Origin: Gammaproteobacteria bacterium
GTDB taxonomy: Bacteria > Pseudomonadota > Gammaproteobacteria > Ga0077536
Length of the DNA: 41,602 nt
Direction: 5' to 3'
NCBI GenBank assembly: GCA_016191285.1
Contig: JACPPA010000027.1
Span: 1 to 41,602 of the forward strand
In this document: positions 32,803 to 41,419 of the stretch, one piece after another
Numbering within the stretch: the first letter of the stretch is position 1
Layout of the letters: every line of letters begins with the position of its first letter
The notes under the pieces: model-generated
What the model was told of the DNA's origin: nothing
Database searches by the model: none
The model's input: the letters and a program-made list of their open reading frames with translations, nothing else
Translations under genes and position numbers: made by a program

Positions 32803-33465
32803 ATGGAGCCGCGCGCAGTCCAAGCGATGTTCAAAAAATTAGCCGCTGCCGATCCGCACCCGACCACGGAACTAACTTACGCGAATCCGTTTGAGTTGCT
32901 GGTGGCGGTCATCTTATCCGCGCAAGCTACCGATATGAGCGTAAACAAGGCGACACGCACGCTGTTCGCCAGCGCTAACACCCCGGCGGCGTTGCTTGCG
33001 CTCGGCGAGCATGGTTTAAAGCAGCATATAAAAGCTATTGGGTTATTCAATGCCAAAGCGCGGCACCTGATGATCACCGCACGACAACTTATCGAGCTGC
33101 ATCGGGGTGAAGTGCCGCAGACGCGCGAAGCACTCGAAGCCTTGCCTGGAGTGGGGCGTAAGACGGCCAATGTGGTGCTTAACACGGCGTTCGGCGAGCC
33201 GACGATTGCGGTCGATACGCATATCTTTCGAGTCGCCAATCGAACCGGGCTGGCGCCGGGCAAGACGCCGCTGCAGGTGGAGGAGGGACTACTAGTGGCG
33301 GTGCCCAAAAAGTACCGCCAGCACGCGCATCATTGGTTGATTTTACATGGGCGCTATACGTGCATGGCGCGACGGCCAAAGTGTGCCACCTGCATTATCG
33401 GTAAAGAGTGTACCTGGTCGCAAAAGAAAGAATATCTCAAGCAGAGCACCGATGCTCGTCAGTAG
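32803..33465 (+). CDS. nth: Endonuclease III (DNA glycosylase/AP lyase)
   Basis: A 220-residue HhH-GPD base-excision repair enzyme removing oxidised pyrimidines. ILSAQATDMSVNKAT and the helix-hairpin-helix LPGVGRKTANVVLN, including the catalytic Lys, precede VDTHIFRVANR with the catalytic Asp. The C-terminal [4Fe-4S] loop follows the CX6CX2CX5C spacing (CMARRPKCATCIIGKEC). The ATG at 32803 is 1 nt after the stop of the RnfB-like gene; its end overlaps the DUF1841 gene by 14 nt. Confidence 0.97.
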   Translation: MEPRAVQAMFKKLAAADPHPTTELTYANPFELLVAVILSAQATDMSVNKATRTLFASANTPAALLALGEHGLKQHIKAIGLFNAKARHLMITARQLIELHRGEVPQTREALEALPGVGRKTANVVLNTAFGEPTIAVDTHIFRVANRTGLAPGKTPLQVEEGLLVAVPKKYRQHAHHWLILHGRYTCMARRPKCATCIIGKECTWSQKKEYLKQSTDARQ

Positions 33466-33862
33466 CACAGACGAGTCGCGACGCTTTTTTGCCGAGGCCT
33501 GGCGCAAGCGCTGCGCGGGTGAGGCGCTGGCGCCGCTTGAGATGATGGTCGCCGAGGTCATCGCGGCTCACCCCGAATACCACGCGTTATTTGGCGCCTC
33601 ATTGGTGCCGCCAACATCGGCGGATAACCCGTTCCTGCATTTGAGTCTCCACATCGCCTTAAACGAACAACTCCAAACCGATCGACCGGCCGGCATTAGA
33701 GCGATCTACGCGACGATGAAGCAGCAAGACGGCGGAGATGCGCATGCCGCGGAACATCGAATAATGACCGTATTGGCCGAGACCTTGTGGAATGCCCAGC
33801 ACCGCGGGACGGCGCCGGATGAAGCGGTGTATACCGCAAAGTTAAATCAGGCGCTGACATGA
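33452..33862 (+). CDS. DUF1841 family protein
   Basis: A 136-residue protein of unknown function. It shows RRFFAEAWRKRCAGEALAPLE, then a HPEYHALF segment and NPFLHLSLHIALNEQL, with a His-containing AAEHRIMTVLAETLW near the C-terminus, matching the DUF1841 family as I recall it. No signal peptide or membrane segment; rich in helix. The ATG at 33452 is inside the last codons of nth; the longer frame from 33347 would be entirely within nth. Its stop overlaps the next start as ATGA. The family is often encoded near nth. Confidence 0.8.
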   Translation: MLVSSTDESRRFFAEAWRKRCAGEALAPLEMMVAEVIAAHPEYHALFGASLVPPTSADNPFLHLSLHIALNEQLQTDRPAGIRAIYATMKQQDGGDAHAAEHRIMTVLAETLWNAQHRGTAPDEAVYTAKLNQALT

Positions 33863-35127
33863 GGCCAGGAGACGTCAGCGTGCAAGGAATCGCCAACCGC
33901 GAGGGATCGATCGCAGGTTTGTTGGCCGAAGTGACGCAGGAATTTGCGACGTCGCTTAATGTCGAGGACACGCTGCAGGACGCGATTGATCAAATAATCG
34001 ATTATCTGCAAGCCGAAGCCGCTTCAATTTTTTTACTCGACGAAGCGGACCGTTCCTTGATTTGTCGAAAATGCGCGGGTCCAGTCGATATCACGGGATT
34101 GCGCCTCGCGCTGGGTCAGGGAATCGTCGGCGCGACCGTGGATTCGAACCAACTCCAGCTTGTGCGCGATGTGTCCCAGCATACGCAGTTCGCCGCCAGC
34201 ATCGACCGCGACACTGGATTTTCAACCCGCTCAATTCTGTGTGTGCCACTCGCCGTTCGTGGCCAGTGTATCGGCGCGCTTGAGCTAATCAACAAGCGCG
34301 GTGGCGATGGGCTGTTTGGCGCGTCCGACGTGCATTTGGCGACGGCGGTGGCGGCGGCCGCGGCGTTGGCGATTCACAACGCGCGCATGACTCAGGTGCT
34401 GGTGGAGCAGGAACGCATGCGCAAGGAACTCGAACTCGCGCGCGCTATTCAAATTAGTCTATTACCGCCCACGGATTCGACGCTGCCGATTCACGGGCTC
34501 AATTTGCCCGCACGCCAGGTCTCGGGAGATTTTTATGATTACGTGATGCTCGCTGACGGGCGCATTTATTTTTGCATTGCCGATGTCGCTGGCAAGGGCA
34601 TCAATGCCGCGTTGTTGATGGCGAAGACCACGAGCCTGCTGCGTTGTCTCGCCAAAACGATTCGCGATCCCGCCGCGTTGCTCGCGCAGGTAAACGTTGA
34701 AGTCTTCGAGACCGCGTCGCTGGGAATGTTTGTCACGATCATCGCCGGCTTTGTCGCGGCCGATCGACGCTCGATACAGTTTGCCAACGCCGGTCATCAC
34801 GCGCCGTTGCAGCGGCTTGCCGATGGCCGCTATCGCGAACTGACGGCCACCGCGCCACCGCTCGGAGTGGTCGCCGAATTGAGCGCGACCACTCAGTCCC
34901 TGGCGCTCGCCGACGGCAGTATTTATCTGTTCACCGATGGCCTGACCGAAGCGCGTGATGGGAGCGGCCGGGCGCTCGGGCTCGCGGGCTTAAAAGCGGT
35001 GCTCGAATCCGTCAACGCAGTACCATCGCCGACTCGGTTGAGCGCCGCCGTCTCCGTACTTGAAGCTCAACATCGCCATTTTCACGACGATATCACGCTG
35101 GTGTTGGTTAACGGCGATGAGCGCTAA
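33859..35127 (+). CDS. GAF-domain PP2C-type phosphatase (RsbU-like)
   Basis: A 422-residue cytoplasmic phosphatase. A GAF sensor (about 30-180) is followed by a coiled-coil linker (QVLVEQERMRKELELARAIQISLLPP) and a SpoIIE/RsbU PP2C domain (about 220-420) with the metal-binding motifs GDFYDYV, IADVAGKGINAALLM, NAGHHAP, LFTDGLTEARD and the final DDITLVLV. It should dephosphorylate the phosphoserine of a STAS antagonist, very probably the one encoded at 35560. The GAF ligand is unknown. It overlaps DUF1841 by 4 nt and the kinase gene by 11 nt, so all are likely co-translated. Confidence 0.93.
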   Translation: MRPGDVSVQGIANREGSIAGLLAEVTQEFATSLNVEDTLQDAIDQIIDYLQAEAASIFLLDEADRSLICRKCAGPVDITGLRLALGQGIVGATVDSNQLQLVRDVSQHTQFAASIDRDTGFSTRSILCVPLAVRGQCIGALELINKRGGDGLFGASDVHLATAVAAAAALAIHNARMTQVLVEQERMRKELELARAIQISLLPPTDSTLPIHGLNLPARQVSGDFYDYVMLADGRIYFCIADVAGKGINAALLMAKTTSLLRCLAKTIRDPAALLAQVNVEVFETASLGMFVTIIAGFVAADRRSIQFANAGHHAPLQRLADGRYRELTATAPPLGVVAELSATTQSLALADGSIYLFTDGLTEARDGSGRALGLAGLKAVLESVNAVPSPTRLSAAVSVLEAQHRHFHDDITLVLVNGDER

Positions 35128-35536
35128 GAACGCGTTGCTGGCGCTGCGGTTCGCGGCCGATCCCAGGCGCTTACGCCGCGTGCGCGAACGGGTGCAGGTG
35201 CTGGCTGAACACCTCGGTTGTACCCGCAGCCAAGTCTCGGATTTGGTGATCGCGGTCAACGAGGCCTGCATGAATATCATCCAGCATGCGTACCGGGGCG
35301 ATAAATCCGGTCAAATCATGCTCGAGATCCGGCGCGATGGGGCGGAATTGGAAGTATTGCTAACGGATTTCGCGCCACCGGTTGACCATCGTGCCATTCG
35401 GCCACGACCACTCCACGAGCTTAGACCGGGCGGGCTGGGAACTTATTTCATCCAGGCCAGTGTCGATGATTGTGTGTATGGGCATTTAGCCGATCGCGTG
35501 GGGAATTACGTTAGGATGACCAAGAAAATAAACTAG
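35117..35536 (+). CDS. RsbW-type anti-sigma/switch serine kinase
   Basis: A 139-residue GHKL ATPase kinase. The N-box VIAVNEACMNIIQHAY carries the E..N..H pattern, LTDFAPP corresponds to the G1 region and GGLGTYFIQASVDD to the G2 region, so ATP binding looks intact. Such kinases phosphorylate a STAS antagonist on serine and often sequester a partner (classically a sigma factor); no sigma gene is present here. The ATG at 35117 is chosen because it starts the conserved ALRFAADP; it overlaps the phosphatase gene. It ends 23 nt before the STAS gene. Confidence 0.93.
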   Translation: MSAKNALLALRFAADPRRLRRVRERVQVLAEHLGCTRSQVSDLVIAVNEACMNIIQHAYRGDKSGQIMLEIRRDGAELEVLLTDFAPPVDHRAIRPRPLHELRPGGLGTYFIQASVDDCVYGHLADRVGNYVRMTKKIN

Positions 35537-35559
35537 AACCCTCGGAGCGAGTACTGGCT

Positions 35560-35892
35560 ATGGTGTATCAAGTGAAGAAAGACAGTGGTTTCGCGATCAT
35601 CCACTTAGTTGGCGATATCGATCTGTCCTGTTCGCCAGAAGCGCGCAAAGCGATTCTCGATAGCCTCGGCGCGGGGCAACCCACATTGGTTGATCTCTCG
35701 GGCGTGACCTATATCGACAGCTCGGGCGTCGCCAATCTGGTTGAAGGTTATCAAACCGCGAAGAAGAAAAGTCTCGAATTCGGCCTGCTCGGGGTTAGCG
35801 AGGCGGCGTTCAGCGTGCTCGAGCTGGCGCGCTTGGACAAGGTGTTTCCAATCCACGGTTCGCTGAAGGAACGCCTCGCAAAGAATGGTTGA
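35560..35892 (+). CDS. STAS-domain antagonist (RsbV/MlaB-like)
   Basis: A 110-residue single STAS domain. VDLSGVTYIDSSGVANLVEGY contains the conserved D-S-S-G loop whose serine is the phosphorylation site in RsbV/SpoIIAA proteins. MlaB, the STAS subunit of the Mla transporter, has the same fold. Here the gene overlaps mlaE by 8 nt and follows its cognate-looking kinase and phosphatase, so it may act in both roles: switch substrate and transporter subunit. The start is an ATG with a GGAG-type site upstream. Confidence 0.92.
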   Translation: MVYQVKKDSGFAIIHLVGDIDLSCSPEARKAILDSLGAGQPTLVDLSGVTYIDSSGVANLVEGYQTAKKKSLEFGLLGVSEAAFSVLELARLDKVFPIHGSLKERLAKNG

Positions 35893-36697
35893 GCGCGCCG
35901 ACGGCCGGGTCCAGCAGGCGATGGTTCAGGTCGGGCGCGCCGCGATCGGCGTGATCGAGGAATATGGCTATTGGCTGACCTTGGTTGCTGAAAGCCTGTA
36001 CTGGTTGGTGGTCGGACCTTTCAAAGGACGGCCGGTGCGACTCAGCGCGATCGCCACGCAGATGATGGTTGTTGGGGTCGCCGCGACGCCGATCCTGTTC
36101 ATGCTGTCGTTTGCGATCGGCGTCATGCTGGCGATCCAAGGGATTTATACTCTGCGCCAATTCGGGGCCGAGACTCAGGTAGTGCTCGGCATTGCGTTAT
36201 CCGTCGTGCGCGAATTCGGGCCGCTAATCACCGGGATCTTGCTCGCCGGCCGCAGTGGCTCGGCGCTCGCTGCGCGCATCGGAACCATGCAGGTGAATCA
36301 AGAAATCGACGCCTTAACCGTGATGGGTATCGATCCGGTGCGCTATCTCGCCGCCCCAGTCTTGGTGGCGATGATGATCATGGTTCCGGTGCTGACCTTA
36401 TTCGCTGATCTGTCCGCGCTGTTCGGTGGCGCGGTGTTCTGCCGCTTGGAGCTCGGATTAAGCCAAATCGCGTACTGGGATCAGGCTACTTCATTCATTG
36501 CCGCCGCGGATCTCTATCAAGGATTGATCAAAAGCGTGATATTCGCGGCGCTCATCGCGCTCGTCGGCATCAGCAATGGCTTTGCCGTCAGTGGCGGCGC
36601 CGAAGGAGTGGGGCGCGCGACGACGCGTGCGGTGGTGTGGTCCATCTCTTACCTGGTTCTTGCGGACATGCTGTTCACGTATTTTTTGAATCGCTAA
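35885..36697 (+). CDS. mlaE: MlaE-family ABC lipid-transport permease
   Basis: A 270-residue integral membrane protein of the MlaE/PqiA-associated permease family. A coupling amphipathic N-terminus is followed by five or six hydrophobic helices, with the family signature FGPLITGILLAGRSGSALAARIGTMQVNQEIDAL and MGIDPVRYLAAPVLVA. It pairs with the ATPase encoded next and the MCE protein encoded after it to move phospholipid across the periplasm; direction is unknown. It starts inside the STAS gene and ends 5 nt before mlaF. A MlaC periplasmic carrier is missing here. Confidence 0.93.
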   Translation: MVERADGRVQQAMVQVGRAAIGVIEEYGYWLTLVAESLYWLVVGPFKGRPVRLSAIATQMMVVGVAATPILFMLSFAIGVMLAIQGIYTLRQFGAETQVVLGIALSVVREFGPLITGILLAGRSGSALAARIGTMQVNQEIDALTVMGIDPVRYLAAPVLVAMMIMVPVLTLFADLSALFGGAVFCRLELGLSQIAYWDQATSFIAAADLYQGLIKSVIFAALIALVGISNGFAVSGGAEGVGRATTRAVVWSISYLVLADMLFTYFLNR

Positions 36698-36702
36698 ATT
36701 TG

Positions 36703-37506
36703 ATGTCTGACGATTACGCCCTCGAAGTCGATTCAGTCACTGCGTATTACGGCTCGCGGCGCATCCTCGACGACGTTTCGCTGCGTGTCGGTTACGGCGA
36801 AATCATGGTGATCATGGGGGGCAGCGGGTCGGGCAAAAGCACGTTGTTGCGGCACATGCTCGCGCTCAACAAGCTTGCGGCCGGCAGCATTCGCGTATTG
36901 GGGCTTAACATCGCACGAGCCACCGGCGAAGAACTGCACAAACTTCGACGAGATATCGGCGTAGCGTTTCAATCCGGGGCCTTGCTGAGTTCGCTTACCG
37001 TGGGCGAAAACGTCGCCCTGCCGCTACGTGAGCATACCGACCTTAACGACAACATCGTTCAAATCAGCGCCAAGTTAAAGCTCGAGGTCGTGAATTTAGG
37101 CGGTTTCGATCAGCTCTACCCTGCGCAACTTTCCGGCGGCATGATCAAACGGGCTGCGTTGGCGCGTGCGCTGGCGATGGATCCTAAGCTGTTGTTCTTC
37201 GACGAACCGTCGGCCGGTCTCGATCCGGTGGTCTCGTCCGAACTCGACGATTTGATTTTGAAGCTTCGTAACTCGCTTAAGATGACCATCGTAGTGGTCA
37301 CGCATGAGCTCGAAAGCGCCTTTAAGATTGCAGATCGCATCACGGTATTGGATCATGGGCGCATCTTGATCTCGGGAACGGTCGACGAAGTGCGGAACTC
37401 AACCATAGCGCGGGTTCAAGATCTGCTGCAGCGACGCTCGCGTCCGTCCGAATTGTCGGCCGATGACTATCTTGAGCGGCTTACCGCGCATGTGAAAAGA
37501 GCTTGA
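36703..37506 (+). CDS. mlaF: MlaF-family ABC transporter ATPase
   Basis: A 267-residue ATPase. Walker A GGSGSGKST, a Q-loop in VAFQSGALLSSL, the ABC signature LSGGMIKRAALARALAMDP and Walker B LLFFDEPSAGLDPVVSSELD are intact, as is the H-loop in VVTHELES. It is the canonical MlaF-type partner of the permease encoded just upstream. I chose the ATG at 36703 (MSDDYALEVDSV); the longer frame to 36637 lies within mlaE. A C-terminal tail of about 30 residues after the core (SADDYLERLTAHVKRA) may contact the STAS subunit, as in known MlaF-MlaB pairs. Confidence 0.94.
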   Translation: MSDDYALEVDSVTAYYGSRRILDDVSLRVGYGEIMVIMGGSGSGKSTLLRHMLALNKLAAGSIRVLGLNIARATGEELHKLRRDIGVAFQSGALLSSLTVGENVALPLREHTDLNDNIVQISAKLKLEVVNLGGFDQLYPAQLSGGMIKRAALARALAMDPKLLFFDEPSAGLDPVVSSELDDLILKLRNSLKMTIVVVTHELESAFKIADRITVLDHGRILISGTVDEVRNSTIARVQDLLQRRSRPSELSADDYLERLTAHVKRA

Positions 37507-37545
37507 GTCGCGCCACCCACGCCAGCACGGGACCAAGGCTATCCA

Positions 37546-38556
37546 TTGAAGCGCGATACCGTTAATTACCTCGTCGTCGGTCTCTTTGTCACCGCGATCG
37601 CGGGCGCCTTTTTCATCTTCATGTACTTTGTGACCGGGCGAGCCGGCCCAACTGATCACTACTTCGCGTTCTACGCGAATGTCACCGGAATAAAGTTTGG
37701 TACGGGGGTCTTTTACGAAGGTTATCGCGTCGGGCAGGTTGAAGCGGTGGAGCCCACGCCGTTGCCGCAAGGGGTGCATTACAAAGTGACGCTCAGCGTG
37801 GCCAAGGATTGGCGGATCCCGGTCGATAGCGTGGCTGAAGTGGTCAGTGCTGGACTCATCTCGCAGGTCCGGATCGAGATCCGCGCAGGACATGCGAGCG
37901 AGTTGTTGCAGCCTGACGCCGAGATCCGCGGCCTGCAGAAGGCCGACTTGTTCGCGGCATTGAGCCGAGCCGCGAACGGCTTTAATGACCTCTCGCAAAC
38001 TGGCGTAACGCCGATTTTGCACAACTTAAATGAACGAATTTCACAAGTCGCCGATGAACTAAAAACCTTTCGAGAGGGTGAACTATCGCCCTTTATCGCA
38101 AGGCTTGATCACAGCTTGAACGATGAACTCGCGCCGCACGCGGCGCGCGTGCTGACGCGGCTCGATGCCGATGCCGCGCGCTTAGAACGCTTCTTGGGGC
38201 CCGAGCATGAAGCGCAGGTCGGTGAGTTTTTAACCCAGATTAATGACGCGGCGGTGAATCTGAATACGCTTATCGCGCGAATCGAAGCCACCCGCGCGGA
38301 ACTCGACACAGTCGTGGGGTCGGTGGGTCGGCTAGCGTCGACCAACGAGCCCGATCTCACCGCCGCGGTGCGCAATGCACGCTCGTCACTCGAGCAAATG
38401 GCGGCGACGCTTACCGCCATTAACGAACGCGTCGATTCCGTCATGTACAATTTGGACGGCAGCGCGCAGCAAATCCACGAGCTCACGCGCGCCTTGCGCG
38501 ATAACCCAACCCGTCTGCTGCGTGCCCCAGCGCCGGCCGTAAACAGTCCGCCATGA
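37546..38556 (+). CDS. MCE-domain (MlaD-like) substrate-binding protein
   Basis: A 336-residue inner-membrane-anchored protein. One N-terminal transmembrane helix (about 9-29, NYLVVGLFVTAIAGAFFIFM) precedes a single MCE domain (about 38-118, YANVTGIKFGTGVFYEGYRVGQVE) and a long helical tail with heptad-like repeats (about 140-320) ending near DNPTRLLRAP. The tail is much longer than that of MlaD (about 180 residues) and resembles PqiB/YrbD-like or Mce proteins that build periplasmic tunnels. The start is a TTG with AAGG upstream; no ATG or GTG is available in frame between the mlaF stop and the conserved region. It overlaps the lipoprotein gene by 4 nt. Confidence 0.88.
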   Translation: MKRDTVNYLVVGLFVTAIAGAFFIFMYFVTGRAGPTDHYFAFYANVTGIKFGTGVFYEGYRVGQVEAVEPTPLPQGVHYKVTLSVAKDWRIPVDSVAEVVSAGLISQVRIEIRAGHASELLQPDAEIRGLQKADLFAALSRAANGFNDLSQTGVTPILHNLNERISQVADELKTFREGELSPFIARLDHSLNDELAPHAARVLTRLDADAARLERFLGPEHEAQVGEFLTQINDAAVNLNTLIARIEATRAELDTVVGSVGRLASTNEPDLTAAVRNARSSLEQMAATLTAINERVDSVMYNLDGSAQQIHELTRALRDNPTRLLRAPAPAVNSPP

Positions 38557-39164
38557 ACGTATTGGCGGCCGGAATGATAATTTTGGTCGCGCTGGTGGGC
38601 TGCGGCGGCATTACGCCGCTACCCCAAGAAATATACATTCGACTCGCACTGGCCGTCCCGCCGTCCAACGTCGTGCAGTTTCCCGCGAGCGCTGCTTGGC
38701 GAGTCGCGCCGTTTCGGGGCAGCGGCGTACACAAAGAACGGGCGCTCGCCTATACCCGTGACCACGGCAAATCATTGCAACAGTACCCGCGAATATTTTG
38801 GCTTGATAGCCCTGAACGGCTGTTACAAGCGACGCTGGCGGGCTATTTGCGCGCTGGTGCCAACGTGCAGGTCACCACCGAGCGCGCGTCCAACGCGGGA
38901 CTGGAAGTGTTTGGAATTATCCAGCGATTTGAACAAGATTTAAGTGATGATCAGATTGCGGTCGACGCGGATTTGGTGATCGAGCTCCGACGACAGTCGA
39001 GTGGGCGCCTCTTATGCACCAAGGAATATCGAGTACGGCAGTCGATCGGCGATGCCTCTGCCGTCCACGTGGCAACCGCCATGAGTGAAGCTGTGACGCA
39101 AATCTATGCGCAATTTGCCACCGATGCGGCCGCTGCGCTTAAATCCGACGTGGCAAGCGAGTAG
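38553..39164 (+). CDS. ABC-transport auxiliary lipoprotein (PqiC-like)
   Basis: A 203-residue lipoprotein. Signal peptide with lipobox ALVG followed by Cys17, so it would be lipidated by Lgt. The mature part resembles the periplasmic auxiliary lipoproteins that accompany MCE/Mla/Pqi systems: a conserved PRIFWLDSPERLLQATL segment and a beta-rich body. It may dock the MCE tunnel to the outer membrane. The gene starts within the end of the MCE gene (ATGA) and is followed 5 nt later by the cyclase gene. The family assignment is from layout and context rather than a strong motif. Confidence 0.78.
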   Translation: MNVLAAGMIILVALVGCGGITPLPQEIYIRLALAVPPSNVVQFPASAAWRVAPFRGSGVHKERALAYTRDHGKSLQQYPRIFWLDSPERLLQATLAGYLRAGANVQVTTERASNAGLEVFGIIQRFEQDLSDDQIAVDADLVIELRRQSSGRLLCTKEYRVRQSIGDASAVHVATAMSEAVTQIYAQFATDAAAALKSDVASE

Positions 39165-39169
39165 GTAGG

Positions 39170-41419
39170 ATGCAAAAATTTCTGGCGCGAGTCCGTGAGC
39201 ATGGTATTCGAATTGGTCTAGGCCTCGCGGTCTTACTGTTGTTTCTCTTCCATGCCGCCAACTGGTTACGCCTGGGTTTGGTCGATAAGCTCGAGAATCT
39301 GTCCTATGACGAGCGCCTAGTGCTCACGATGCCCAACACCGTTGAGCAGCGCATTGTCATCGTCGATATCGATGAAAAAAGTTTGACCGCCGAAGGACGT
39401 TGGCCGTGGGGGCGGAATAAACTTGCGGCGCTTGTCGAACAATTGGCGTCTGAATACAAAGTCGCCTTGATTGGTTTTGACATCGTCTTCGCCGAACCCG
39501 ATGTTAGTTCCGGCTTGTCGGTGTTGGAAACACTTGGGACCACCGACTTCAAGGATGATGCGACCTACCACGCGCGGCTCGAAGCGATTCGACCACGTCT
39601 TGATTACGACGAAGTATTCGCGCGAACGCTGCAAAAATACCCGGTCGTCTTAGGCTATTACTTTAATTTCAGCGGCACGCTAAACCAACCTGCCGCCATC
39701 ATTGGCGCGTTGCCGGCGCCGACCTTCGTCAAGGGCGCGTTTGCCGGTAAAAACATCGCGTTTCGTCACGCCGATGGCTACGGCGCCAATCTCGAGAAGC
39801 TGCAGCGGCACTCGCTCGGCGCGGGGCATTTCAATCCCTTTCCTGATTCCGATGGCGTGATCCGGCGCGTGCCCATGTTGATCGAACACGATGGGGCGTA
39901 TTACGGATCGCTAGCGCTAGAAATGGCCCGCCTCGCCTTAGGCGCCAAGGAAATCACGCCGCGTTTCGAGCAGCCGCTGTTCGGCGCGCGCGGCTATCCG
40001 GGGCTCGAGTGGTTGGTGGTCGGCCATAGCGCCGTTCCCGTCGATCGCAATGTCCAAACGCTGGTGCCTTACCGCGGTCACCGCGGGAGTTTCCCGTATA
40101 TATCGGCGACCGATGTCCTCCACGACAAAGTGCCCAAAGAAGTACTCAATGGCGCGATCATTTTGGTCGGGACCACGGCGCCAGGACTGCTTGATTTGCG
40201 GACGACACCGGTTGACGAGGTCTACCCCGGCGTTGAAGTTCACGCCAACCTTATTTCGGGGATATTAAGCGGGCACATGAAGCAATTGCCGGCCTACACG
40301 CTTGGTGCGGAAGTGTTGCTTCTGCTGTTATTTGGGGTGGTGATGGCGGTATTAGCCCCGCTGTTTAGTCCGCTTGCAGCCACGGTTCTCGCGGCCGGCC
40401 TAATCCTTGGTTATATCGGATTGAACCTGCTGGTATGGACGGTCGGCGATTTTGTACTGCCTCTGGCGTCTGGCGTTTTGATGTTAGTGGGCATGTTCGT
40501 GTTGAATATGTCGTACGGTTATTTCATCGAGACGCGCGGCAAACGCCAAATCACCGGACTCTTCGGCCACTATGTCCCCCCCGAGCTTGTCGACGAAATG
40601 GCGAAACGCCCCGAAGTGTATTCGCTCGAGGCCGAAAGCCGCGAAATGACCGTGTTGTTTTCCGATGTCCGTGGCTTTACGACCATTTCCGAAGGGCTCA
40701 ACCCGAAAGAACTCTCGGCGCTAATGCATGAATTCCTGACCCCGATGACGAGGGTTATTCATGAGCGTCGCGGCACCATCGATAAGTACATGGGGGATGC
40801 AATCATGGCGTTTTGGGGCGCCCCGGTACTCGATCATGCGCATGCGTTGCACGCGGTGCAGGCTGGCCTCGATATGTTAGCTCGCGTCAACGAATTAAAT
40901 AAAAGCTTCGTGACTAAGGGCTGGCCAGAGATCAAGATCGGGATCGGGATCAACACCGGACCGATGAGCGTCGGCAACATGGGTTCCGAATTCCGCGTGG
41001 CCTATACCGTGCTGGGTGATGCGGTAAACCTCGGCTCGCGCCTTGAAGGATTGACCAAGGGTTACCAGATCCCGTTGTTGGTCAGCGAATCGACCAAGGA
41101 GGCGGTGCCCGAATACGCCTATCGCGAAGTCGACCGGGTGCGGGTCAAGGGCAAGGACAAGCCGATCACTATTTACGAACCGCTCGGGTTAAAAGAAGAT
41201 TTGGATACTAAATGGAAGGACGAGATGAAGCTCTATCGCGAAGCGCTGCGCCTGTATCGTTCCCAGGAATGGGAAACGGCGGAAATGAATTTTCTCAATC
41301 TGCAACGCAACTCGCGTGCGCCAGCGCTTTATAGAATTTACGTTGAACGGGTGACCAGTTACCGGCGCACGCCGCCGCCGTCAAATTGGGATGGCGTCTA
41401 TACACACGGCCAAAAGTAG
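39170..41419 (+). CDS. CHASE2-domain class III adenylate/guanylate cyclase
   Basis: A 749-residue membrane protein. An N-terminal hydrophobic helix (about 17-35) precedes an extracytoplasmic CHASE2 sensor domain (about 40-355), three transmembrane helices (about 370-450) and a C-terminal class III cyclase domain (about 490-690). Metal aspartates are in FSDVRGFT (about 497) and KYMGDAIMAFWG (about 539); VLGDAVNLGSRLEG and RVKGKDKPITIYE supply the Asp and Lys expected of ATP-specific enzymes, so cAMP is the likelier product. It is last in the transporter operon, 5 nt after the lipoprotein gene. The periplasmic CHASE2 domain could sense the state of the envelope or of the transported lipid, which is inference. 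Confidence 0.93.
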   Translation: MQKFLARVREHGIRIGLGLAVLLLFLFHAANWLRLGLVDKLENLSYDERLVLTMPNTVEQRIVIVDIDEKSLTAEGRWPWGRNKLAALVEQLASEYKVALIGFDIVFAEPDVSSGLSVLETLGTTDFKDDATYHARLEAIRPRLDYDEVFARTLQKYPVVLGYYFNFSGTLNQPAAIIGALPAPTFVKGAFAGKNIAFRHADGYGANLEKLQRHSLGAGHFNPFPDSDGVIRRVPMLIEHDGAYYGSLALEMARLALGAKEITPRFEQPLFGARGYPGLEWLVVGHSAVPVDRNVQTLVPYRGHRGSFPYISATDVLHDKVPKEVLNGAIILVGTTAPGLLDLRTTPVDEVYPGVEVHANLISGILSGHMKQLPAYTLGAEVLLLLLFGVVMAVLAPLFSPLAATVLAAGLILGYIGLNLLVWTVGDFVLPLASGVLMLVGMFVLNMSYGYFIETRGKRQITGLFGHYVPPELVDEMAKRPEVYSLEAESREMTVLFSDVRGFTTISEGLNPKELSALMHEFLTPMTRVIHERRGTIDKYMGDAIMAFWGAPVLDHAHALHAVQAGLDMLARVNELNKSFVTKGWPEIKIGIGINTGPMSVGNMGSEFRVAYTVLGDAVNLGSRLEGLTKGYQIPLLVSESTKEAVPEYAYREVDRVRVKGKDKPITIYEPLGLKEDLDTKWKDEMKLYREALRLYRSQEWETAEMNFLNLQRNSRAPALYRIYVERVTSYRRTPPPSNWDGVYTHGQK

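Follow-up and report, generated by a model that had tools for sequence, protein, structure and literature searches.

A partner-switching module encoded with an MCE-family lipid ABC transporter: a STAS protein as candidate phosphorylation-controlled MlaB

In E. coli the STAS protein MlaB is a subunit of the MlaFEDB lipid transporter, and the C-terminal helix of the ATPase MlaF, with Tyr261, Leu265 and Leu266, reaches it (PMC7367683). Phosphorylation of MlaB at Thr52 was proposed in two papers (PMC7367683, PMC5016091). T52A abolishes ATPase activity (PMC5016091), and T52E is described in the MlaB literature as lowering MlaF binding. In the passages on MlaB in PMC7367683, phosphorylation is not shown and the setting of the active MlaB level is called an open question. 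Partner switches with an output other than the classical stress sigma factor are also on record: for BtrU/V/W and SypE/SypA the outputs are type III secretion or biofilm genes (PMC8256260), and the main text of that review of partner switches is free of the terms 'Mla', 'ABC transporter' and 'lipid'. Here a locus is described in which the genes of a partner switch run directly into those of an Mla-like transporter. It lies in a stretch of 41,602 nucleotides (nt; the window) from a Gammaproteobacteria bacterium (assembly GCA_016191285.1, contig JACPPA010000027.1, positions 1 to 41,602, forward strand). The locus is read as a partner-switching module with an MCE-family lipid ABC transporter as output, in which the STAS protein would serve as a phosphorylation-controlled MlaB; the probability of this reading is put at roughly 0.77.

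No description of a partner switch linked to an Mla/MCE transporter was found in open-licence PMC papers, where a search for 'RsbW' with 'MlaE' gave no paper and neither did one combining 'STAS' with 'partner switching', 'MCE' and 'lipid transport'. The Mla operon survey in the MlaFEDB structure paper, as described in its text, did not search MlaB or MlaF homologues directly (PMC7790496). Judged from these sources, partner switches with other outputs and the proposed MlaB phosphorylation are already known, and the tie between both appears to be new.

The module spans 33859-41419 on the plus strand. This range holds eight genes, a seven-gene set and a cyclase gene (start and stop codons verified), almost gapless and all on the plus strand. 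Overlaps were found between PP2C and RsbW (11 nt), STAS and MlaE (8 nt), and MCE and lipoprotein (4 nt); the gaps between the remaining neighbours are 23, 5, 39 and 5 nt. A first-pass annotation of the window had listed a phosphatase, a kinase, a STAS protein, mlaE, mlaF, an MCE gene, a lipoprotein gene and then a cyclase, tightly packed, and all were found at the place and on the strand given there.

The three switch proteins, a SpoIIE-type PP2C, an RsbW-type kinase and a STAS protein, are encoded together. The RsbU-like phosphatase (33859-35127, +) carries a GAF domain (residues 35-172, Pfam 3.3e-15) before its SpoIIE domain (residues 233-417, 1.1e-35). The nearest PDB matches of the GAF part are phosphodiesterase 2A and an adenylate cyclase. 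Ten PP2C from other loci, chosen for unusual length or oddity, carried GAF (6), HDOD (3) or receiver (1) domains before the same SpoIIE domain; such variation is as expected for a module where different signals feed one output. The kinase gene (35117-35536, +, ATG 35117) encodes an RsbW-type serine kinase (HATPase_c_2, 3.9e-29). A profile of its relatives matched RsbW (6m36) at 4.8e-23 and also SpoIIAB. Among these relatives the glycine box is conserved, as are Glu and Asn of the N-box: the strict N-box pattern was found in 127/130 non-redundant rows, with Glu and Asn visible by sight in the remaining 3, and the glycine box in 130/130.

The STAS gene (35560-35892, +; STAS 3e-16, STAS_2 1.2e-14) encodes an intact D-S-S-G loop at 35716-35727, with the Ser54 codon at 35719-35721; the loop, already recorded in the first pass, was verified in translation. 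It is present in 130/130 non-redundant STAS rows. The whole D-S-S-G motif is as in SpoIIAA and RsbV, and Ser54 presumably corresponds to Ser58 of SpoIIAA. In E. coli MlaB this position is taken by Thr52. A profile of STAS relatives returned TM1442, SpoIIAA and RsbV first, then E. coli MlaB at 2e-4 to 5e-4. Against the NCBIfam MlaB equivalog the window STAS scored 26.3 bits, short of the cut-off of 90, and from its sequence it may function like MlaB though it is not classed as an MlaB orthologue. The set thus resembles RsbU/RsbW/RsbV and SpoIIE/SpoIIAB/SpoIIAA, with a SpoIIE-type PP2C, an RsbW-type kinase and a STAS protein with D-S-S-G, but a lipid ABC transporter seems to be what it controls. 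The same kind of protein set serves BtrU/V/W and SypE/SypA, again with an output other than the classical stress sigma factor, although a different one from that proposed here (PMC8256260). Two variants of the switch genes were seen elsewhere. Kinase and STAS share one reading frame on an alphaproteobacterial contig (L079:681-2498), either a natural fusion or a metagenome sequencing error, and a tandem pair of STAS genes lies between kinase and MlaE in L107 and L112.

An MlaE permease, an MlaF ATPase and an MCE protein lie in one operon behind the switch. The MlaE-type permease (35885-36697, +; PF02405, 5e-71) has no fused STAS and scored above the cut-off for the MlaE family in NCBIfam, at subfamily level. 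The MlaF-type ATPase is encoded at 36703-37506 (+), where ATG 36703 was a better fit than GTG 36637 of the open reading frame (ORF) list; it matched ABC_tran at 1.7e-28 and the NCBIfam MlaF profile at 1.1e-56, below the equivalog cut-off. Its C-terminal tail Y-L-E-R-L (Tyr-x3-Leu; 37468-37482, +, translation verified) is the proposed clasp for STAS. The MCE protein (37546-38556, +; PF02470 4.2e-12, residues 37-115) has 336 residues with a long C-terminal part. The auxiliary lipoprotein (38553-39164, +; PF03886 1.4e-06, 28.4 bits against a cut-off of 26) shows a lipobox LVGC by sight and is one that we take to be PqiC-like. Because the window proteins reached no NCBIfam equivalog cut-off for MlaF, MlaD or MlaB, the transporter is classed by sequence as a relative of Mla, not Mla itself. 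With E. coli MlaFEDB it shares an MlaE permease, a tailed MlaF, an MCE protein and a separate STAS subunit; unlike there, where the text of the two papers names neither, a kinase and a phosphatase are encoded beside STAS (PMC7367683, PMC5016091), and the STAS protein has D-S-S-G and is nearer to RsbV/SpoIIAA than to MlaB. Brucella Mpc, the Mla-Pqi chimeric system, likewise combines MlaE and MlaF homologues with a long MCE protein (331 residues there) and a PqiC-like lipoprotein, but its STAS is fused to the permease, whereas separate ORFs are found here; the text on Mpc names no kinase or phosphatase for it (PMC12436622).

Conservation of the gene order was examined with a profile of 11 kinase sequences. 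The best 80 of at least 585 tblastn-confirmed stretches from genome_contigs were taken as named loci, several of which end at contig edges. They belong to Gammaproteobacteria, Alphaproteobacteria (mostly Rhodospirillales), unplaced Proteobacteria and, by title, one Myxococcales bin. Behind STAS, MlaE or MlaF was found in 63 of these best 80 loci, MCE in 59 and the lipoprotein in 55. PP2C lies upstream in 73/80, in the same reading frame as the kinase in 22. The complete seven-gene set (PP2C, RsbW, STAS, MlaE, MlaF, MCE, lipoprotein) is present in 53/80, so the order, for which the first pass had proposed a conservation check, recurs and is no unique accident. The locus of the environmental strain Methylohalomonas lacus HMT 1 (L083) has all eight genes, cyclase included.

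For counts by genome, 369 genomes were drawn evenly from the window's class, and only the best 11 (kinase), 8 or 6 (MlaE) and 7 (MlaF) candidates of each were scored. A kinase match at E <=1e-8 was obtained in 76 genomes. The upper kinase group comprises 59 genomes (E <=8e-34; next match 1e-22), with mlaE or mlaF right after STAS in 53, without them in 4 and with contig edges in 2. Among the weaker kinase matches (11 of 25 inspected) mlaE or mlaF was found in 0. The window-clade MlaE set numbers 46 (E <=9e-75; next match 2e-52), and a kinase lies within 1.5 kb upstream of 42 of them; one more (G110) is a locus split over two contigs. The others are transporters without the switch in G084 and G318 and a second transporter copy without the switch in G101. 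The gene order recurs over 33 families of the class and is not accidental. In a phylum-wide draw a kinase match at E <=1e-15 was found in 17/299 genomes; six matches fall outside family f200, five of them with MlaE or MlaF behind STAS and one (G655) with neither in the 1 kb that follows STAS there. Phylum-wide matches were kept outside the other counts, except G000 and G382. Duplicates by kinase and STAS sequence, the contig-edge loci L140 and L156 and incomplete MlaF ORFs were left out.

Kinase and transporter also go together where they are not neighbours. Window-type MlaF, defined by a score of at least 246 bits (next match 228), is present in 60 of the 369 genomes. Of the 369, 57 have both it and the kinase, 2 the kinase alone, 3 this MlaF alone and 307 neither (Fisher p about 1e-60, with kinship ignored; 33 families). 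The kinase-only genomes are G001 and G231, where the contig ends behind MlaE. Twenty-four genomes were examined that have kinase and STAS but show nothing of the transporter behind STAS, including G201, where the contig ends. In 13 of them window-type MlaF is encoded at another place, next to MlaE and a short MCE gene; all 13 of these unlinked MlaF carry the Tyr-x3-Leu tail. PP2C is kept at the switch in 12/13 genomes with unlinked MlaF versus 3/11 without such MlaF. A reading of repeated transporter loss with kinase and STAS retained, drawn at first from 15 relatives and a tree, was corrected by these 13/24 genomes; the tree shows 11 changes, at least 5 of them forced, which are loss or relocation of the transporter at the locus, not loss from the genome.

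The distant operon of G061 reads mlaF-mlaE-mlaD-mlaA-mlaC, with no STAS gene on that contig, and the same order was read in G201 from the ORF list alone. The switch directly precedes MlaF-MlaE-MlaD, the canonical order, in G196, G063 and G213 (L153, L159, L172). STAS is followed by MlaF without MlaE in three genomes (L166, L167, L169); in two of them, G322 and G040, MlaE, MlaD and MlaA stand in a row elsewhere without mlaF (L253, L254). Pfam identifies MlaA in both genomes and MlaC in G040, MlaC of G322 was assigned by sight, and G040 additionally carries a canonical mla operon (L255). The canonical-order, unlinked and MlaE-less arrangements thus connect the same switch, at the level of sequence, with MCE transporters of two kinds, and MlaF is the constant partner.

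In E. coli it is the MlaF tail that contacts MlaB, and the tail of kinase-linked MlaF resembles it; contact with STAS is predicted here from sequence. The pattern Y[LMI]x[RDE][LI] ends 86/86 complete kinase-linked MlaF. Among 28 MlaF loci from the class-wide search, largely the same genes as the 86, 27 fit a slightly wider pattern and the last keeps Tyr-x3-Leu. A Y/FxxxL tail was found in 15/17 canonical MlaF and in 0/19 of a third group, which consists of the MlaF of L210 and of 18 loci picked by frame length as carrying a fused STAS-MlaE. The D-S-S-G motif was found in 0/19 MlaE-fused STAS domains that could be read (Thr 13, Ser 5 and Ala 1 at the first position), these being 19 of 20 inspected by eye, with L191 left out for an N-terminus out of frame. 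By eye it was found in 0/17 separate kinase-free STAS (Ser 14, Thr 2, Asn 1), namely that of L210 and 16 MlaB encoded next to canonical operons; no separate STAS was seen in L217 and L222, and that of L223 was not included.

The mechanism that we infer would run as follows. Unphosphorylated STAS would take the place of MlaB and bind MlaF, aided by the Tyr-x3-Leu tail, and would thereby let the transporter assemble and hydrolyse ATP to move a predicted lipid cargo. The kinase would phosphorylate Ser54, upon which STAS would leave MlaF and transport would stop. The PP2C, instructed by its GAF domain (an HDOD or receiver domain elsewhere), would remove the phosphate and turn transport on. With a kinase and a phosphatase encoded beside the STAS gene, release by phosphorylation and restoration by dephosphorylation would be the simplest mechanism. 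SpoIIAA and RsbV contact their kinases around the same Ser, so MlaF and the kinase would compete for one face of STAS, a partner switch with an ATPase as second partner.

STAS might also be a diffusible, shared MlaB, so that one switch would set every clasp-type MlaF in the cell, wherever encoded. This extension is tentative and is given somewhat less than an even chance. The window's own genome has a second MlaFED (L038:7449-10330, G000:C49) whose MlaF tail is Y-L-A-R-L, with an MlaC gene on the opposite strand; an STAS_2 search found no STAS on that contig, and this MlaFED is a possible second target of STAS. Canonical mlaFEDC without mlaB had been suspected in several relatives, and the idea was dropped where the STAS_2 search placed a STAS beside mlaE (G010, G012, G018); the same search found no nearby STAS for canonical mlaFEDC in G001, G002, G003 and G004, which belong to one genus.

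Several observations weigh against a transporter-bound switch. Window-type MlaF occurs without the kinase in G029, G084 and G251, and in G251 the MlaF tail is intact; in G084, which lacks the switch, the tail has Phe in place of Tyr. L210 has a separate STAS gene before MlaE, yet its MlaF has no tail. The rule that joins a separate STAS to an MlaF tail is therefore imperfect, with L210 as an exception among kinase-free separate STAS. The profile comparisons place STAS closer to anti-sigma antagonists than to MlaB. Kinase-free MlaB, too, frequently has Ser at the phosphosite (14/17), so that the residue alone is weak proof and the signature is the whole D-S-S-G motif. In E. coli, T52A kills MlaB function as well, which a simple phospho-off switch does not explain. 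G655 (L237) has a strong kinase match and no MlaE or MlaF within 1 kb behind STAS. Finally, 11/24 examined genomes keep kinase and STAS with intact motifs and without any window-type MlaF; 5 of these 11 were reached via named loci, and their completeness is not established. In four pairs of such genomes the ratio of nonsynonymous to synonymous substitution rates (dN/dS) of kinase and STAS is 0 to 0.29, indicating purifying selection. Where the locus has no transporter, branch lengths give no detectable rise in the rate of STAS relative to that of the kinase (Mann-Whitney p 0.07 for the part of the tree around the window and 0.15 overall; 1687/5000 label shuffles reach the ratio), and a pairwise hint of relaxed STAS evolution was abandoned after this non-significant result. 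Because kinase and STAS are kept under purifying selection without window-type MlaF, a second role in these genomes is likely on sequence grounds, and the transporter would not be their sole job.

These genomes are the main support for a reading in which the transporter is one of two or more targets of the switch, with STAS or the kinase as a shared hub, and in which some lineages keep only the other target. It is compatible with a transporter output and is quite possible, at rather less than even odds. All 11 genomes fall in one 23-row tree group with the window, so this may be a local story; the further target was not found; and PP2C is gone from the locus in 8/11, as if the circuit were decaying or rewired. 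A purely structural, MlaB-like STAS, whose amount or assembly the kinase and phosphatase control or on which they are inactive, would suit the MlaB account in PMC7367683, where phosphorylation is not shown, and the Ser or Thr found at the position in 16/17 kinase-free separate STAS and 18/19 fused STAS. D-S-S-G and the nucleotide-binding residues of the kinase are invariant in 130 rows, while the motif is absent from every fused and kinase-free control, and the sensor domains of the phosphatase vary as in a signalling module; a purely structural role is therefore considered improbable.

The outputs other than the transporter were weighed at the same loci. A classical partner switch with its true target in a sigma factor encoded elsewhere, the transporter genes being mere neighbours, draws on the likeness of the STAS and kinase profiles to RsbV/SpoIIAA and RsbW/SpoIIAB, and sigma factors are present in trans in 16/16 genomes searched. 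Among the matches listed for these 16 genomes (several contigs are short), none lies beside the module and one is on the module's contig, about 87 kb away, in line with the first-pass remark that the window has no sigma factor. Mere neighbourhood cannot explain the unlinked co-occurrence of kinase and MlaF or the STAS-MlaF pairs without mlaE, which makes this reading very unlikely. The first-pass annotation had gone further and drawn a full circuit, with the GAF domain as input to switch and transporter and a cyclic-nucleotide output supplied by the CHASE2 class III cyclase (39170-41419, +; CHASE2 1.1e-60, Guanylate_cyc 7.4e-23). The cyclase gene begins 5 nt behind the lipoprotein gene and is kept there in relatives, also beside kinase and STAS in loci without a transporter. 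It adjoins the module in 24/80 named loci and 13/53 complete seven-gene loci. The GAF NK-F-D motif, which we take to be typical of nucleotide-binding GAFs, was matched with a loose pattern about as often without the cyclase (38/42) as with it (21/21; 16 more were unclassifiable). The cyclase was rejected as core output or input on these counts and is a lineage-specific neighbour outside the conserved core; the full circuit is unlikely. What stands of the first-pass proposal is the kinase- and phosphatase-controlled STAS tied to an Mla/MCE transporter, which the 33 families and the unlinked co-occurrence support; an exclusive link to the transporter does not stand, given the 11/24 genomes without such MlaF.

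Further observations concern the surroundings of the module and its relatives. A DUF1841 ORF (33347-33862) lies upstream and overlaps the PP2C gene by 4 nt; such an ORF separates nth from the switch in many gammaproteobacterial loci. Just past the downstream end of the window, in convergent orientation to the cyclase gene, come genes for an FHA protein, another PP2C and a CHASE2 Ser/Thr kinase (L228:516-4654, G000:C27). Similar FHA and PP2C ORFs were seen behind the STAS or cyclase gene in 10/10 transporter-less loci inspected. DUF1841-MlaE-MlaF without phosphatase, kinase and STAS was seen in L230:3377-7073 and L231, from one genus; L230 also has MCE, lipoprotein and then an FHA gene, with Phe for Tyr in its MlaF tail, and L231 ends within MlaF. 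The L104 locus of Magnetospirillum sp. UT-4 has all three switch genes and MlaE, with no MlaF or MCE match behind MlaE. Two MlaE matches on another contig of the window's genome (G000:C32) look broken: one is a STAS-MlaE frame whose match is confined to the C-terminal third of the family (L039:7545-8330), the other a short match with an internal stop (L040). Family f200 (L241, L243-L252), whose small genomes come from a different class of the phylum, keeps kinase and STAS, the STAS motif being D-S-A-G in 7 and D-S-S-G in 4; its eleven loci gave no PP2C, MlaE or MlaF match within flanks of about 1.5 kb.

In 33 families of one class and in Alphaproteobacteria an MlaB-like protein is thus linked with a kinase and a phosphatase. 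The arrangement is a direct candidate for lipid transport under signal control and would bring an ABC transporter within the reach of partner switching; it also provides a natural setting in which to test the older proposal of MlaB phosphorylation. If STAS were indeed a shared MlaB, the lipid traffic of several MCE systems would be raised or lowered together by one signal, including a canonical MlaFED with MlaA, MlaC and no adjacent mlaB (G061) and, in the window's own genome, both the local transporter and the MlaFED of G000:C49. The arrangement is found in many environmental bacteria and makes the question of how a lipid pump is controlled directly testable.

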